Source of the DNA: Dichotomocladium elegans | Lineage: Eukaryota; Mucoromycota; Mucoromycetes; Mucorales; Lichtheimiaceae | Assembly (NCBI GenBank): GCA_025716815.1 | Contig: JAIXMN010000006.1 | Span: 310,001 to 374,000, forward strand | DNA length: 64,000 nucleotides | Direction of reading: 5' to 3' | Part shown: positions 20,696 to 41,677 of the stretch, piece by piece | Position numbering within the stretch: the first letter of the stretch is position 1 | Layout: the number at the start of each line of letters is the position of its first letter | Made by a program: the position numbers and the translations under genes | The notes under the pieces: generated by a model | What the model saw: only the letters and a program-made list of their open reading frames with translations | The model's database searches: none | What the model was told of the DNA's origin: nothing

Positions 20696-20842
20696 TATAC
20701 TCCCTATATACACCATTTTTCAAAATCAAAGTCGCACCCTGCCAGTTTTGAAGTCGCAGGATCGCAAAAATACAAATCGCATTTTTGTCCGGAAATCTTT
20801 ACGCGTGATGACAAAGCAAAAGTCGCATACATACACGGAAAG

Positions 20843-21316
20843 ATGTCGCAAATCCATCTCATCCTTATGACTCTTTCTCTTTATAAACTTTTACATTTTG
20901 AAATGAGCAATCTATTATTTTACAACGATGGCCAAGGTCATGTCGCTGATGAGGAAATGTACTCACTTCAATCCGTTTGTTCTTACACTGAATATCTGTG
21001 TAGCATATCGTGCAAAGATAACTCTGAGTTTACTCTCACACACATTCCCAAGCGAAAGGATACATACATTCGGATGAAAGAAGCGGGGATCAAGGGCAGT
21101 TACACAGCATACACTGATCAAGGCAAGGTCAGATGTTTCAAACTGGTGTTTGAGGAGGTATTGAGTGCATCAGCTGCAGCAAAACAGCTAGGACTCCATG
21201 TTCGTTCAGCACAGCGATGGGCATTACAGTAAGAAAAGGATCCTGACAGCATTTTAAGAAACGTAGAAGCAGGGGGCCGATCGTGTATTCTCAATGAAGA
21301 GCATTTATTGTTCTAG
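20843..21316 (+). pseudogene. Broken DNA transposase N-terminal fragment (Tc1/mariner-like HTH)
   Basis: An open frame of 129 codons ends in a helix-turn-helix-like segment (ASAAAKQLGLHVRSAQRW). TAA at 21233 then interrupts it in the same frame. The frame stays coding-like for 27 more codons after that stop, to TAG at 21316. The layout HTH, then Trp, Gln, short acidic linker and I/L-E-E-H resembles the start of IS630/Tc1-mariner-type transposases common in Mucoromycota. No DDE catalytic core is recognisable downstream. I read it as a decayed relic, possibly of the transposase that moved the element. The start codon is uncertain. Confidence 0.55.
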
Positions 21317-21759
21317 AATGCAATTTTCGCTAAAAATAGCCGTACTCAAAAGAATCCTATATCGAGAAGACTAAGTTTATTCTTGGAAAGAACAAAGAAC
21401 TATCGGAGTGTGCTTTCTTTGTCAATGAGCCATTTAGCCTGGGGATTGTAACTCCGAAGCTGGTTATCAAATGGAATAATGAAGTAATAGCTTTCAGGAG
21501 ACTCCTGTGTTCTCATTGTAATATTCAGAGAAATTATTCATTATGTACCTACACTTTCTGAACGTATGGATAAGGATGACAGCAGTGTCGTGTTTTGTTG
21601 TGTTGTAAGAGACTGAGAGAGTACGAAAAGAAGTACAATCTTCCTACACTACACAAGTGCCGGATATGTATCGGATTATTCTTGAGATGGTCTCTTGGAA
21701 TTACTTGTTGGAATTGTTTGGGATTTCATTGTTGATTTCAGACCGCCCTCACGTCGATA

Positions 21760-21931
21760 CAGTGGCCGCCCCTTATAGTTATACCCTCGGTTCCAGGAAA
21801 TCGCATCACTATAATGAATTATCACTATAATGAATTGGAATAAGCCCTACCTGGCAATTTTGTCCTTCATAAAGTGTATCGCTATAACGAATTATCATTA
21901 TAATGAATATCACTATAACGAGCGGCCACTG
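21760..21931. mobile_element. 172-bp MITE with CAGTGGCCGC termini and TA target duplication
   Basis: The unit begins CAGTGGCCGCCCCTTATAG and ends in the inverted form of CAGTGGCCGCTCGTTATAG. It is flanked on both sides by TA, as in Tc1/mariner/pogo insertions. Its interior is built of repeated ATCACTATAATGAATT-like units in both orientations. It has no coding capacity and must have been mobilised in trans. It sits between the broken transposase and Fanzor. Confidence 0.88.
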
Positions 21932-21996
21932 TAAAACCTCATTAAGAACCCAGTGGGAAAAAGAAAAACACTGTGGAGATGGATCATTGCTGACAC

Positions 21997-22004
21997 TATA
22001 AATA
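21997..22004 (+). promoter_or_regulatory. TATA box candidate for Fanzor
   Basis: TATAAATA lies about 170 nt upstream of the Fanzor ATG, just downstream of the MITE. It is the best core-promoter match in this interval. Position fits a fungal promoter but transcription is not shown. Confidence 0.4.
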
Positions 22005-22175
22005 GTGATGCTCAAGCAAGCTGTCCCTTTCCATTATCCACATACAAAACTAGAGCCCATTCAGCCTACAGAAAATAACACAGCACCACATTTACGGTTG
22101 AAAGGTAATACGGCCGCTTTCATACTCGGCTCTGCGATACTAAGAAATAATATACCCTAGGTCTTCACCCACCAA

Positions 22176-24374
22176 ATGGCCCAACCCCACCGCCCCGTCA
22201 TTCCCGAAGGCATGCGCACTGGCCACAGCATTGACCGCACTGGCCGTATAATTGGGGTGAAATCGTCCATACGGGGCATCGGCTGGCGACAGCAGTACCG
22301 TGAACATCTGTATCAGTTGGTTGACCTTGTCCACAACACCACAACACAGGCGTACGCGTTCGCCAAATATATTTTCATCAACGAGGCAGCGCGCGATCCA
22401 ACTTTTAACATCCAGGAAAACATCACGGAGAAGTTCTTTTCAGAAGTTTGGCTCTCCATGGTTAACAAAGCCGAACGCCGCACCCAAGGTGAAACTGCCC
22501 GCATCCGAGAACTAATTAACCGCCACAAGGATGAGTACCTTCGGATATCCGGATACGACAGGCCTGCGTTCCCTTATTCCCAGCAATGTTCTTCTTACGA
22601 AGGCACCAAGATTTATACTGCTTACGTGAATAATGTCCACATGCGGTTCGGGCAACACCTTCGGCGTGTCATCAATGTCATCCTGAATCTTCGTCAGCGA
22701 AAAGCCGACCGCAAGCGAGAGTTAATCGCACAGGGCCTAAGCCCCGATCAAGTACGCCAGGACCTTTATGAAACCATCACCCGGCATGCCACAGGATTCA
22801 AGCTAGCAATTGCCCGTCGAGGTGTTTTGAGGGAAGACATTAACGCCGAACCTGGATTTCTTCGGGAAGCATACGATATCCTACAACCTGTCTTAAACGC
22901 TTACCCCCGAAACCACCAATTCCAACACCAGAGTATCTATTACGACGCCAAGGCCAATCCTGTTAAGCATTTCAACGCCTTCTTCCAGCTTGCACGCGTT
23001 TGTCAACAGAACGGAATACGCGGATTCAACTGTTTTCCACTTCGTCGCTCGTGGTCACCATGCTACATGGAGATCGATACGAAAATCCTTTGCTACCATA
23101 TCCTGGGCTGCAAAATGGAATCCCACACAAGCAATATGGAGTACTGGAGACGTGTTGTAAACCTGAAATCAAGAGCTTTCAAACCCCAAGAATCCGAGCT
23201 GCTCCAATTCCGTGGGACTATTCACACTGACGGCGTCGGTGTTACTGTGTTCAAGAAGACAAATGGCCTTCAATCGGGTTTCGGACAGAGATTTGGCATC
23301 CAGAGCGAAGATATCGAATACGTCACCCCACAGATACTCCGGAACGAAGACTATAGAGGACAATGGGTCACCATTGATCCTGGCAGAAGGGACCTGTTGT
23401 ATTGCGTTCATGAGAACTCGTCACCCGACAACCACCAGACCTTCCGATATACAAAGCAGCTTCAAGATCATACACGGAAGACCAAACGGTACCGCAGACT
23501 CCGAGAACGACTCAAGTTAGAGCGACCCGAGGTCGCGTTGGCTGAGCAGAATCTATCTCAATTTCAAAGTTATACGCTTTCCGTGCCCAACTACGACGGA
23601 TACCTCGCCGCCAAGAATCGGGTCTCTGTAGTTCTCAAGTCTTTCTATGCGACAACCACTACGAACCACCCGAACCCGCAATTTCTTTTTCGAAAACTTC
23701 GCCTGTCAGCGTTTTACAAGAAGCAGCAAGCAGATGAAAAGCTTCTGGATTCTTTGAATGCGAAGTTTGGCAGTAGATCCGTTTTCGTGATGGGAAATTG
23801 GTCTGCGCCGCATACAAGATATCACGAGCCTATCCGTGGTGTCGGCTTCCGGCGGCTGTTGAAGAAGAACAATTGCAATATTTATTTGGTCGACGAGTAC
23901 AAGACAAGCAAGTGCTGCCCTGTATGTGACAATGAAAGCCTTGCTACCTTTAAAATGGTTCCTAATCCACGCCCATATCGACGACCCGACAATCCGCTCA
24001 CGATCTGCCATGGCCTGCTACGGTATGAAGGACGGGCATGTTGTGTTATACTTCCAAAAGATTATAATACAGTATTTTGATGTTTCAATAGATGCACAAA
24101 TCAAAACTGTACAGCAGGCATGGCAGAGGGTGTTTGTCAACCAAGGTTATGGAACCGGGATCTGGCGGCGGCTCTCAACATGCATCATATCCTCCGGGGT
24201 CTTCGGGAAGATGGTATCATCCCAGCAAGGTTCCAGAGAAGAAATGCTGCACAAGCATCCGCAGCTGGTGGAAGACCACACTCACCTGAACCAGAGCAGC
24301 GCAGCGTGAGACCACGACGGGCAAGGCCAGGAAGGCCACGAGGTGCACGCTCTGGTGGGTCGAGACGACCGTAA
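22176..24374 (+). CDS. Fanzor: eukaryotic TnpB-like RNA-guided nuclease (RuvC fold)
   Basis: Two exons (22176-24022, 24092-24374) joined through a GTATGA...CAATAG intron give 709 residues. The RuvC-like core shows IDPGRRDLLYCV with D401 (RuvC-I), a GNWS strand where other Fanzors have GDWS, and DEYKTS with E574, which matches the relocated glutamate reported for Fanzors. The RuvC-III motif is WNRDLAAALNM with D639. A zinc ribbon is split by the intron: C581-x2-C584 and C617-x4-C622. The N-terminal 380 residues are helical and basic (HNTTTQAYAFAKY, LRQRKADRKRE), fitting the REC/WED region. A proline/arginine-rich tail follows RuvC-III. There is no stop or frameshift, so it is probably functional. 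It is an element cargo, not a host gene. Fanzor1-like rather than Fanzor2 is inferred from size. Confidence 0.93.
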
Positions 24375-24393
24375 CCCCAACCAAGAATTTTCC

Positions 24394-24462
24394 GCGTCAG
24401 TTATCGCTGACGCACCCAGGATAACCACAGCCCTTCGGGGCAAGCCCCCTTCCTTTGGAAGG
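24394..24462 (+). ncRNA. Candidate Fanzor guide RNA (omega/fRNA-like) hairpin cluster
   Basis: Starting 20 nt after the Fanzor stop there are three hairpins in 69 nt. They are a 7-bp stem GCGTCAG/CTGACGC (24394-24413), a GCCC-TTCG-GGGC stem with a UUCG loop (24430-24441) and CCTTCC-TTT-GGAAGG (24448-24462). GGGGC/GCCCC can form an alternative pairing between the last two. TnpB and Fanzor guide RNAs are known to lie at the 3' end of the nuclease gene and extend into the element end, where the guide begins. The position and fold fit that, but the exact 3' end and guide are unknown. Confidence 0.55.
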
Positions 24463-24837
24463 ACGGTGTGTTGTAAGTCAACGGGATTGGAGAAGGCATA
24501 GTGTTTTCTGCTGACTAACAGGGTTTCATCCATGGATGCGAAATCTTTTTACCTATTGATACGACAAATTTATATAATTCTATGCGACATTCTTCTTGTA
24601 TTTTGCACGACATTATTTTATCTTGTTTACGAAATTTATTTTTGAAAATAAAGTATACAAACGTATGGCGCTGGGCGTCGTTAATAAACCCATTTTTGAA
24701 AATATAAAAGAAATTGATTGGATTGGGATAGGCAGGCAAGATGACGTAGTTGTTCGACGACTACCCCCGCCAAATTTTTGAGTGGCGTGCGTGGGTGGGA
24801 TATTCGTAAACGCAACAACAATCTCTCCCCACTCTCA

Positions 24838-29220: not shown

Positions 29221-31607
29221 ATGGTACGCGCCAAAAAGCAATCCACCCCAGAGGAAGAACGACCGACGTCCAAGTTTCTCAAAGAAGGTAAATGAGCCCT
29301 GTCGCTCAGTACACACAACGATCAGGGGGGAACTGGCTTGTGACTTGTTCCATAACACAGAAATCACTGCGCCATGCAAGTCGATGCGATCCTTGCGATG
29401 GAATGAGGCGGCCATTCCCAATGCCATTGAAATCCGTCCCATTTTGGCAAGTCATTTGAAATGCTCATTCAACTGTGATCGCATGTGTTCATTCAAAACC
29501 CCAATCACGTTAGGCAAAGCTGCGCAATCTCAAGCTTGGCATGGCGGGTGCCAACGACGCGGAACCTGATGATTTCTGGAAACTCTCGAGTATGGAGACG
29601 TACGTTTTTTTTTTGTTCTTGCGGGAGAAGCACTTGAACGATATTCTTTCCTCTTTCCCTCTTTTTTTTTGGGGGAGGAGCCAGCGTTATGGTCCATGGA
29701 ACGTACGGAAGGGGCTCACATAGACCTGTTTTATACTGTAGTGAGGAAATCGAAACCGTCAGAAAGGAAAATGTCTTTGGCGAAGAAGTGACAGAGGCAG
29801 ATATGGACATCATCCAGAAGCGAGTCGCTCTGCAGCAGCGGCAGTTTGCCGAGTTTGAGAAGCGCGACAAGGCACGCAAATACAAAAAGATCAGGAACAT
29901 GTTCGACTACGTAACGGCAGAGGAGATGGATGAGATGCTTGACGACTGCTCCAATGACGAGGTAAAATGTTGACGTTACTGGGTGGGGGGGAGTTCAAAC
30001 GGACCCTTGCTGACGATCTTATGCTATTGGCCTTGCACTCGGGGTTGGGTGGGTGGGATTCTCAGGATGAGGTGATTGTGCGGCTGACGCAGACCGGATA
30101 TCTGCTTGGGATCCGCAAAATCATTGCAACGAAGCACGCACCCGAAGTGGAAACCCAACGTAAGGAATACATAGATGAGAGCGGGGCCATTAATACGTTG
30201 CTCATGCGTGTGTGTGTGTGTGTGTGGCGGGGCGGGGCGTTGACAGATAACATGATGAGCGCCGAGCAACAGGCAGCATATCAGCAGCTTCTCAAAAAGC
30301 GCTCCGAGACGCTCAAGAAAACAACGAATGACACGGCCAAGAAGCAATACCGTATGGGTGGGCGCCTCGGGCTCGATGACGCACTCAAGCAGGTGCAGGA
30401 GAATAAGATTGATCCCGAAAAGGCATTCGAGGGCTGGTCACAGGCGCGTATCAGAGCCTACCAGATGATTGATCAGAACCCAAACAGCTACTACTATCGC
30501 TTCAATGCGCCTGGCGAAGTCCAGCGCAAGGGTCAGTGGGCCGAGGACGAGAGGAAGCTCTTTTTTGAGCGGCTCGAGGAGGTCGGTGCAAATGGCCAAT
30601 GGGGAATCTTCGCGATGAAGATCCCTGGCCGGGTTGGATACCAATGCTCCAACTTTTACCGTCTCCTTGTCGAGACGGGCGAGATAAACGACCCAAACTA
30701 TGTCCTCGATGAGAAGGGCAAGGCACACTACCTGTTCGACAAGAAGACTGCAAACGGCCAGGTCGAGAAGACTTTCCGAACCCACAGCAAACATGGCACT
30801 GGCCGTGGATCGGGCATCCCTTCGTCATCAGCCACTGCTGCGGCGAGCCCGTCCCAGACAGCAACAACAGCAACAACAACACGGAGAAGAGCGTCACCTA
30901 GCACAGCTACATCGTCCGTGGCAGACAGGAAGACTAGGAAGAGAAAGAAGCGGACGCGAGGATGGGATAGCAACGACGACGAATCGGATGATTTTGAGGA
31001 CTACAACGATGATTCAGGCACATACACCATGAGTCTAAGGACAACACGACGCACGCGGTCACGTCTGGCCGAGGAAGGCACCTACAATGAAGACGCCAAT
31101 CAGGAAGACGAGCTTGATGAGAACGGCGATGAGGAGATGGACGAGAATCCATTACCGGGTTTTGTGGACCCTATCACGCTCGACGAAGTTGTTAAGCCCG
31201 CCATTTCCAAGTACGGCCATGTGATGGGGTAAGTGTTTTACGTTAGGCTGAGATGGTCAACGCATTAAAGTGACTCATTATCATCACCTGTAGCTATGAT
31301 AGTTGGGTGCGTTGTCTGACGAACTGGGAAGGCAAGAAAAATATCTGTCCGTTGACAAAGAATCCGTTGACAAAGCGAGATCTTGGTACGTGTATAGATA
31401 GATGTACATCACCTGCAGCAGCATGGCTCACCTGTCTGTCTACGTTTTTGTATATATATATATTACATAGTGATCTTGACTTGGGAAAACATTGAGGAAT
31501 ACAGGTAAAAAAAAAGACAGTTAGTTGGGAGCGCGCGCGCGCCATAATTACTCTTGGGATTTACTGACGTTGTCTGTGTCTGTAGAGACAAAATTATCAA
31601 CATGTAA
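29221..31607 (+). CDS. SANT/Myb-like plus U-box-like protein, copy A
   Basis: Nine exons (29221-29287, 29361-29446, 29514-29599, 29742-29961, 30066-30159, 30247-31228, 31294-31385, 31471-31504, 31586-31607) give 560 residues. The middle holds a helical EEMTEADMDIIQ-like coiled segment and a SANT/Myb-like domain (QWAEDERKLFFERLEEVG...GQWGIFAMKIPGR). A Ser/Thr/Arg-rich linker with KKRKK-type basic motifs follows. The C-terminus is a modified-RING/U-box-like module: PGFVDPITLDEVVKPAISKYGH, then CPLTKNPLTKRDL and a final helix. Such an order suggests a chromatin-linked ubiquitin ligase, which is inference. The second intron uses a GC donor (GCAAGT). A paralogue lies inverted at 39333-41677. Confidence 0.85.
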
Positions 31608-39332: not shown

Positions 39333-41677
39333 TTATAGATTGATTATTTTGTCCCTGTACTCATCAATGTTCTCTACCGTCAGCACCACTAGATTCAAAA
39401 GACTATCAGCAAATCATCCCAGGGGGAGGGCGGTATTGTTTTTACCAAGGTCTCTTCGGGTTAGCTCCTTTTTTGTCAGTGGGCAAATGTTTCGTTTGCC
39501 TTCCCAGTTATTAAGGCACCGGACCCAGCTATCGTAGCTTTTTTTCATGCCATCCCGGCCAGGAAAAAATTGGTGAGCCGTCCCCACGCAAACCCAACGC
39601 AGAGAAAGGAACGCATTTTACCCCATCACGTGACCATACTTCGATATGGCTGGTTTGATCACCTCGTCGAGCGTGATCGGGTCGATGAATCCCGGTAGCG
39701 GGTTGATGTCGAGTACATTCAAGTCGCTGTCGCTGAACACGCCCTCGTTCTGCTTCTGCGCTGCCAACCTCGTGCAATGCCGCGTGCGCCGTGTCGTTCG
39801 CGAGCTGAGTGTGTATGTCCCGGACGTGTCATTGTAATCCTCCAACGCGTCCTCCTCATCACTGTCCCAACCACTGCGCATGTTTCTCTTTCTCTTTCTT
39901 CTGCCTGCTGGTGCCGGTGCACCGGCACCAGCAGGCTTCTTCGTCTCCACAGGTTTTGTTGTGTTCGCTCGTGTTCCAGCGGGTTCCTCCGCCACTGCTG
40001 CTGATGCCGTTCTGAGCGACCTTGATGAAGAAGAGCCCGGAGAGGCTAGTTTTGAGCCGCGCGACACGGACGGGATGCCGGATCCGCGGCCTGTGCCGTG
40101 CTTGCTGTGGGTTCGAAAGGTCTTTTCCACCTTGCCGTTGGCGGTCTTTTTATCAAAGAGATAATGGGCCTTTCCCTTTTCATCGAGCACGTAGTTGGGA
40201 TCGTGGACCTCGCCTGTCTCGACAAGGAACCGATAAAACGTAGAGCACTGGTATCCGACCCGGCCAGGGATCTCCATTGCAAAGATGCCCCATTGGCCGG
40301 TTGCGCCGACCTGACTCAGCCGTTGGATGAACAGCTTCTTTTCGTGGTCAGACCACTGACCTTTGCGTTGCACCTCGCCAGGGGCATTGAAGCGGTAGTA
40401 GTAGCTGTTCGGGTTCTCGTCGATCATCTGGTACGCTCGGATCCGCGCCTGTGACCATCCCTCGAATGCCTTTTCGGGGTTCTCCTGCACCTGTTTGACG
40501 GCATCGTCCAGCGCAAGCCGCGGGCCGCTCATCATCCCGTAGTATTGCTTTTTCGCAGTGTCATTCGTCGTCTTCTTCAGTGTCCCGGATCGTTTTTTCA
40601 CCAGCAGCTGGTAGGCCACCTGCTGCTCAGCGTTCATGCTGTACTCTATATCATAGCCACCGCCGCGCACAACCCGCCCCGCCACATAAAAAAGAAAGAC
40701 CCCAAGCGCGGCCGAGGTAAGGACCAAACATTCTGTTTAGCTAGCCTGACATGAAAGCAGCAGCAGCAGCAGCAGCAGTCCTCCTCCGAGAAATCCGTAT
40801 TACTTACGGCCTGTTTCGGGCGCATATCTTGTTGCGATGGTTTTGCGGATCCCGGATAAATAACCGACCTGCGTCATGCGCACGATCACTTCTTCCTGTT
40901 GTAGGATGTGTATTATTATTATTAGAGGAAAGCCATTCGCGGGTTTCCGCTCCTCGTCCCCAAACCTCATCATTGGAACAGTCGTTCAGCATCTCATCCA
41001 TCTCTTCGGCGGTCAGATAATCATACATGTCCTTTATCTTGGTATGCTTGCGCCTCTTCTCTCGCTTCTCAAACTCGGCAAACTGACGTTGTTGCAGCGC
41101 AACCCGTTTCTGGATAATGTCCATATCCGCCTCGGTCATTTCCTCGCTAAACACATTCTCCTTGCGAATCGTCTGGATATCATCCCTATTATTGTCATCG
41201 ATCATGTGAACATACATACATATATCGCACGCGACTCTTCCCCTCGCCCCGCGTAGTCTACTTGCGTTTCTGCACTACGCTCTTTCTCATCTTCTTTGGC
41301 TGCTGCTGAGGTGGGTAGCTTCTCCTCCACCGGTTCGCTCTGGCGTAGTTTGGCCTGTAATAAAAGACGACGCGCAAGAAATAAGAAAATGAACACAATA
41401 GACGGCTGAGGTGGGCAAGCATAAAGGGGAGAGGGGGGGCATAAAACTTTCCAGGATGGGCATGATGCGAACGCAATCCGGCACGCTGACCTGATGCCAT
41501 ACCATCGCGTGGGGTGCTGGCTTGGGGATGGTATCCCATGCTATAGGGGATCGCATTGAACATGTCCATGGTGTGAATCGCTTTCGGCCAAGAGACACGA
41601 CAGGTACCTTCATGGAGGAACTGAGACACGGGTCTCTCGCCAGGAAGTGGTGATTGAGATTTGTCGGGACGAACCAT
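39333..41677 (-). CDS. SANT/Myb-like plus U-box-like protein, copy B
   Basis: Eight exons (41677-41608, 41540-41503, 41354-41266, 41185-40966, 40895-40808, 40645-39622, 39537-39446, 39388-39333) give 558 residues. It matches copy A across the SANT region (GQWSDHEKKLFIQRLSQVG) and the U-box-like end (PGFIDPITLDEVIKPAISK, CPLTKKELTRRDL). Differences from A: one fewer intron near the C-terminus, a GC donor (GCAAGT) at exon 3, and a damaged site where A has its GC donor. Exon 2's end is therefore uncertain; GTATGG at 41502 or GTCAGC nearby both keep frame. A gene-specific proline/alanine spacer (GAGAPAPAG) replaces A's Thr-rich linker. Likely functional but less constrained at the N-terminus. Confidence 0.78.

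Follow-up and report, generated by a model that had tools for sequence, protein, structure and literature searches.

A Fanzor1-carrying mariner-type transposon of Dichotomocladium elegans whose right end resembles a spliceosomal intron adjoining a predicted omegaRNA

We analysed 64,000 nucleotides of the Dichotomocladium elegans genome (contig JAIXMN010000006.1, positions 310,001 to 374,000; hereafter the window), which harbour a Fanzor1 gene with one intron in a multi-copy transposon. The gene and its intron, the ends and copies of the element, the selection acting on it, a covarying stem-loop (SL1), a conserved GTAAGT and branch motif and the avoidance of AG downstream of that motif can all be read from the DNA. 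The best explanation of these features as a whole, which we favour with moderate confidence, is that splicing at the right end of the element fuses an omegaRNA scaffold to a guide in the flanking DNA, and that the Fanzor protein then cuts alleles devoid of the element. Splicing, guide use and cleavage are what we infer from these features.

The Fanzor1 gene consists of exon 1 at 22176..24022 (615 codons plus 2 nt, with D401, E574 and CPVC) and exon 2 at 24092..24374 (second half of the zinc ribbon, D639 and the stop codon); unless stated otherwise, the window features described here lie on the forward strand. A sequence-only reading had proposed an intact Fanzor interrupted by one intron at 22176-24374. 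Indeed, the joined exons form 709 codons without a stop, the catalytic residues D401 (IDPGRRD), E574 and D639 are found where it had placed them, and splicing completes the zinc ribbon by bringing together CPVC from exon 1 and CTNQNC from exon 2. The search of PDB sequences returned Fanzors only, and the matches to PpFz1 (E 1.7e-129) and SpuFz1 (E 3.3e-51) are such that the resemblance is not due to chance. As for the profile comparison that had been suggested, these PDB matches were strong, but generic profiles remained below their cut-offs (for Pfam PF07282, exon 1 gave E 0.016 and the spliced protein E 0.058; NCBIfam TnpB profile, E 0.0016). Counted along the PDB alignment, the three residues correspond to D383, E541 and D606 of SpuFz1, named as catalytic in the available text of PMC11423790 and PMC10432273. 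D401 belongs to a DPG motif, and E574 is the alternative glutamate, located six residues ahead of the CxxC motif (E574-x6-C581), which is the rule in Fanzors according to the text available of PMC10711439. The GNWS motif, presented earlier as a peculiarity of this copy, is not one, as PpFz1 likewise has GNWSAP. The protein part encoded by exon 1, modelled with AlphaFold2 (pLDDT 84.7, 35 sequences), has a Fanzor fold, its seven best PDB fold matches all being Fanzors (9cf0, TM 0.76); since D639 is encoded in exon 2, outside the model, the RuvC pocket is seen in the alignment only. By these comparisons, the window gene, split by a single intron, encodes a Fanzor1 whose D-E-D triad is intact; RNA-guided DNA cleavage is predicted for this protein, and its nearest solved relatives are PpFz1 of Parasitella parasitica and SpuFz1 of Spizellomyces punctatus. 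A search for homologues recovered 108 proteins; the five with the lowest E-values belong to Syncephalis, Mucor and Rhizopus and share 44-48% identity with the window protein. A FastTree phylogeny built from 36 proteins unites subfamilies A, B and C with a support of 0.986 and places one further locus, L048, elsewhere with low support.

The spliceosomal intron of the gene (24023..24091, GTATGA...AATAG) has precisely the 24022/24092 junction that had been predicted. The frame also stays open with other GT or GC..AG pairs, but 24023-24091 is the only choice that combines GT..AG with a PpFz1-like HGLLRC context (HGLLGC in SpuFz1). Its splice dinucleotides are widespread in A-type loci (GT in 41 of 43, AG in 40 of 43), and subfamilies B (L044, L045, L047) and C (L046) have an intron at the same codon, with different intron bodies. 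Left unspliced, the frame stops at codon 634, without D639.

The first account of the locus had omitted both the surrounding transposon and the adjoining RNA module. The gene resides in a non-autonomous Tc1/mariner-type element of 3943 bp (20711..24653) with imperfect terminal inverted repeats, whose ends are common to the copies and whose flanks differ. Its right terminal inverted repeat (24635..24653) is a self-complementary hairpin, TTTATTTTTGAAAATAAAG. An N-terminal remnant of a mariner transposase, comprising the helix-turn-helix part, is found at 20903..21232 (109 codons); its openness varies among copies, and we rejected it as a conserved gene, its frame being broken in several of them. 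Related elements with the same ends on contigs C44 and C57 (L056, L057) encode an intact 475-residue mariner transposase (DDE_3, E 1.8e-30; IS630, E 3.3e-48), and others (L049, L051) carry decayed versions of it. We also considered an element starting at TACACC, with the outer dinucleotide duplicated; this was discarded because CATA-type ends lack a matching dinucleotide on the right and the sole empty site has the wrong length. The vehicle of this Fanzor1 is a eukaryotic transposon distinct from IS607.

Several other arrangements were observed in passing. At C57:1657.8k-1664.7k (L046 and L057), a composite mariner element of approximately 6.9 kb contains, on opposite strands and facing each other, the intact 475-residue transposase and a Fanzor exon 1; the RNA module is at the right end of this element, in right-end orientation, despite the inversion of the Fanzor gene. 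Inverted, closely spaced pairs of transposase matches with similar scores occur at C31:605109/610527, C43:191806/195093 and C35:1584856/1587622. In the window, two similar open reading frames on opposite strands, 29967-31232 and 39618-40727, both contain ..SGTYT and DPITLDEV..KPAISKYGHVMG and appear to be an inverted duplicated gene pair. A search of viral contigs gave no match.

The element is bordered on its left by TATA (20707..20710), whose last two bases (20709-20710) are the left copy of a putative TA target-site duplication; the right copy is at 24654..24655. All 44 right ends are followed by TA, and nearly all of the 40 left ends are preceded by it; the left ends also have T at -4 in 37 cases and A at -3 in 39. 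Beyond the duplication, the two sides differ. In A-type elements, L019, L023 and L038 being left out of the count, TA precedes the duplication at 35/35 left ends, giving TATA, and is mirrored on the right in 23/35 (p 1.6e-4). In B-type elements, with three Fanzor-bearing loci added, CA is present at 21/22 left ends, a count from which L068 was dropped, versus TG at 2/16 right ends, from which 7 of 20 ends belonging to another family (L114-L118, L121, L122) were removed (p 1.7e-7). B-type left ends read CATA in 17 cases out of 20 and CATG in one, and L068 and L073 deviate; 20 C-type ends, read by eye, comprise nine CATA, five TATA, four CATG and two doubtful cases. The first base after TA is a pyrimidine in all right ends counted, 35/35 of A type and 16/16 of B type. 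A single empty site, provided by a diverged copy and read by eye, corresponds to the insertion L034 into an older element; it fits a TA duplication with a pre-existing outer dinucleotide. Genome-wide searches with the joined flanks of 36 loci yielded no clean empty site, 46 additional bases separate the flanks in the paralogue of L008, and a search for nested insertions matching both flanks gave nothing useful.

We read YATA as the predicted footprint of a target-adjacent motif (TAM), with TATA or CATA according to subfamily. It is quite possible, even if we lean the other way, that the YA ahead of the TA duplication is instead a target preference of a mariner transposase with unequal ends, since YATA also occurs at B- and C-type left ends in elements without a known Fanzor; the right side of A-type elements is also rich in TA (23/35). 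Nevertheless, the pattern is not mirrored on the right, the choice between TATA and CATA varies with the subfamily, and YATA equals the TAM of SpuFz1 and fits the ATN of PpFz1. In the available text of PMC10432273, the dinucleotide CA is conserved immediately before the 5' repeat of SpuFz1 elements, and the TAM of SpuFz1 is CATA; that of PMC11423790 gives ATN for PpFz1 and lists CATA for GtFz1 and TTAA for SpuFz1.

An omegaRNA with a seven-base-pair SL1 is predicted close to the 3' end of the Fanzor gene. Its putative scaffold spans 24386..24472, the 5' end being a guess, and SL1 (24394..24413, GCGUCAG-UUAUCG-CUGACGC, with UUAUCG as the loop) begins 20 bases past the Fanzor stop codon. The arms differ in relatives (GUGUCGG/CCGGCAC, GCCAUUG/CAAUGGU, GUCCCGG/CCGGGAC). 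Over 17 distinct rows, picked by eye without duplicate or unrecognisable hairpins (L127, L131, L133 and L134 among them), 88.2% of cells are paired and the covariation score is 0.639, against a mean of 0.259 in shuffles that leave relatedness in place; neither any of 500 shuffles nor slid versions of the stem matched this score. Six of the seven pairs show changes on both sides, a measure that 102 of the 500 shuffles equalled by itself. According to the available text of PMC11423790, the SL1 stem of each of the three solved Fanzor1 omegaRNAs consists of seven base pairs. Rfam gave no match over 24300-24720.

With the chosen 5' end, the predicted spliced scaffold measures from 45 nt in subfamilies B and C to 85 nt in A, and is followed by UA and then by the flank. 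Guide nucleotides of PpFz1 are numbered C50-C58 in the text available of PMC11423790, which fits a spliced scaffold of B or C type (45 nt) with UA added, given that 5' end. In the C-type RNA, UA closes a second stem of four pairs, and the second stem of PpFz1 is described there as having four pairs as well; folding energies of this second stem did not distinguish spliced from unspliced RNA. The predicted guide corresponds to the 15 nt of flank directly after TA (24656..24670), a length taken from the PpFz1 and SpuFz1 heteroduplexes (PMC11423790, available text). Other scaffolds were seen at L138, L139, L143, L144 and L146, combined with an unchanged branch motif and, in most cases, an unchanged 5' splice site, several of them having second stems similar to GCCTGG..TGTGAGCC.

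The end of the scaffold is followed, in order, by GTAAGT, TGACTAAC, a stretch nearly free of AG and the terminal AAAG of the element. In the window, GTAAGT at 24473 precedes TGCTGACTAAC and a T-rich run up to the terminal AAAG, with the branch-point-like GCTGACTAAC at 24510..24519. Allowing one mismatch at most, TTTTCTGNTGACTAA occurs 493 times in the genome, compared with 27 times for the reversed pattern, and GTAAGT N18-42 TCTGNTGACTAA forms 220 exact pairs, compared with none for the reversed control. The segment 24473..24653 looks like a spliceosomal intron whose acceptor would be the end of the transposon. The usual acceptor is the first AG after the branch point, hence the last dinucleotide of the transposon is the predicted one. 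By the standards of fungal introns, the distance from branch point to acceptor is long in subfamily A (approximately 130 nt), and better acceptor contexts than AAG exist.

Between the branch motif and the terminal AG, 6 AG and 304 GA were counted in 46 distinct zones (51 places, 5086 nt), 30 of which are near-identical, non-independent A-family relatives; the 4504 nt of flanks contain 242 AG and 264 GA. No AG precedes the terminal one in 40 of the 46 zones. By hand sums, the 16 non-A zones have 6 AG and 79 GA, and their flanks 68 AG and 63 GA. The count skips the terminal AG itself and the six bases immediately downstream of the branch motif, a space in which subfamilies A, C and E do have an AG; we take it to be too close to the branch motif for use. 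Zones were picked by their branch and end motifs regardless of AG content, leaving out places that lack an exact branch motif or a recognised end; these include nine of the 20 loci L123-L142, in which the sequence that follows does contain AG. A p value computed on nine zones that had been selected as AG-free representatives was set aside for that reason. Exact GTAAGT is absent from five of the six AG-holding zones, and also from five AG-free places. In a second sample of 20 modules with an intact 5' splice site and branch motif, the end was recognised automatically in eight, and the first AG is the terminal one in six of these; in L156 and L162 an AG comes earlier. Among the 12 modules with an unrecognised end, L159 has a one-mismatch end that is also its first AG.

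The same DNA could be read without splicing. One RNA of 250-280 nt, ending in the guide, would then comprise scaffold, AT-rich stretch and terminal-repeat hairpin; there is a precedent in SpuFz1, where the terminal repeat lies within the omegaRNA (PMC10432273, available text); by eye, the terminal repeat can fold as a hairpin beside the guide. We regard such a long RNA as unlikely, as it would leave GTAAGT, the branch motif and the avoidance of AG unexplained, and it would exceed the 75-150 nt given for the three solved Fz1 RNAs in the accessible part of PMC11423790.

Alternatively, the right-end intron might be real but serve an mRNA, by joining the element's transcript to host sequence further downstream (gene trapping or processing of the 3' UTR), with the hairpin as an mRNA or transposase-related element. 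Splice-like signals speak for it, and the module also turned up at sampled sites for which no Fanzor was known or had been sought. We hold it to be quite improbable, because the hairpin carries the 7-bp SL1 of Fanzor1 omegaRNAs and sits directly upstream of the 5' splice site in subfamilies A, B, C and E, and because the product would link hairpin to flank, just as an omegaRNA requires.

Exon 1 has 80 matches across the D. elegans genome, a lower bound on matches in which some copies are counted as two pieces. An intact frame close to a host gene might have suggested a domesticated single-copy gene, which the 80 matches, the transposon ends and the varying flanks refute almost beyond doubt. 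The spliced reading frame is open in 18 of 43 A-type loci, 16 of which have GT-AG. In 17 open copies, pN/pS is 0.254 (65 synonymous and 55 nonsynonymous changes), compared with 0.70 in the remaining 26, including L022, which is open but bears a deletion; this indicates purifying selection on the Fanzor copies. Divergence from the consensus is 0.18-0.52% in 13 open copies. The recent activity suggested by the sequence-only reading thus gains support from near-identical copies and from pN/pS, and the Fanzor element is, by these measures, a young, selected, multi-copy transposon family.

Returning to the spliced omegaRNA that we favour, the transcript would run beyond the Fanzor stop codon, through the scaffold and into the flanking DNA. 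The spliceosome would excise 24473-24653, using the last AG of the transposon as acceptor, and joining 24472 to 24654 would fuse the scaffold with TA and the right flank, yielding an omegaRNA guided by the right flank. Bound to this RNA, the Fanzor might then cut unoccupied alleles in which YATA precedes the guide sequence, and repair would copy the element in. At the occupied junction, AGTA would precede the guide; with YATA at the empty site and AGTA at the occupied one, the Fanzor-RNA complex could cut empty alleles while leaving its own element intact, as models of TnpB have it. Transposition itself would be performed in trans by the related mariner transposases.

It may just as well be true as not that the host spliceosome assembles guide RNA from some 200 or more modules in the genome, many of them apparently in Fanzor-less elements supplying guides in trans. 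The 493 branch motifs and 220 pairs of 5' splice site and branch motif, set against at least 80 exon-1 matches, perhaps point to many Fanzor-less (ghost) elements.

Among known systems, PpFz1 (PDB 9cf0-9cf3) is the best sequence and fold match, with the same DED triad, GNWSAP and zinc ribbon; in the available text of PMC11423790 it has a short omegaRNA with a 7-bp SL1 and an ATN TAM compatible with YATA. A spliced omegaRNA is not mentioned for PpFz1 in that text, and in the alignment the window protein lacks the FRI insertion of PpFz1, approximately 100 residues that bind cyclophilin. SpuFz1 and its Spu-1 elements similarly combine a Fanzor1 in many terminal-repeat elements, ghost elements, a conserved dinucleotide left of the 5' repeat, a CATA TAM and a variable guide beyond the right repeat (PMC10432273, as far as available). 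However, the unspliced SpuFz1 scaffold passes through the terminal repeat directly into the guide, and the same text reports no transposase for Spu-1, whereas the D. elegans mariner transposases share the element ends.

Bacterial IStrons, which unite a group I intron and an IS element, also combine a transposon with splicing and may contain TnpB (PMC4227781, in part). They differ from the D. elegans element in having no spliceosomal fusion of scaffold and guide. Self-splicing of IStrons removes the whole element and competes with the omegaRNA. To our knowledge, omegaRNAs were not yet known when Bao and Jurka published their 2013 study. That work, in its available text, places Fanzor1 in the Tc1/mariner elements PUl-1, PUl-4 and PGv-1, with TA duplications and with or without a transposase, but its Mucorales cases are MuDR-like or unclassified (PMC3627910). 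The word 'intron' is absent from the main texts of PMC3627910, PMC11423790, PMC10432273 and PMC10711439. Among the open-licence papers listed, none describes a spliced Fanzor omegaRNA by its title or start of abstract, and an open-licence search for Fanzor in Dichotomocladium gave no paper.

If our reading is correct, a DNA transposon with ordinary terminal repeats would join a guide to its scaffold across the intervening repeat and spacer by making its own end a splice acceptor. This would link eukaryotic RNA processing with an RNA-guided nuclease, and it would explain why omegaRNAs are missed when only the vicinity of the element end is searched. The role that Fanzors play for their transposons would become testable in a fungus that has both near-identical intact copies and intact partner transposases.
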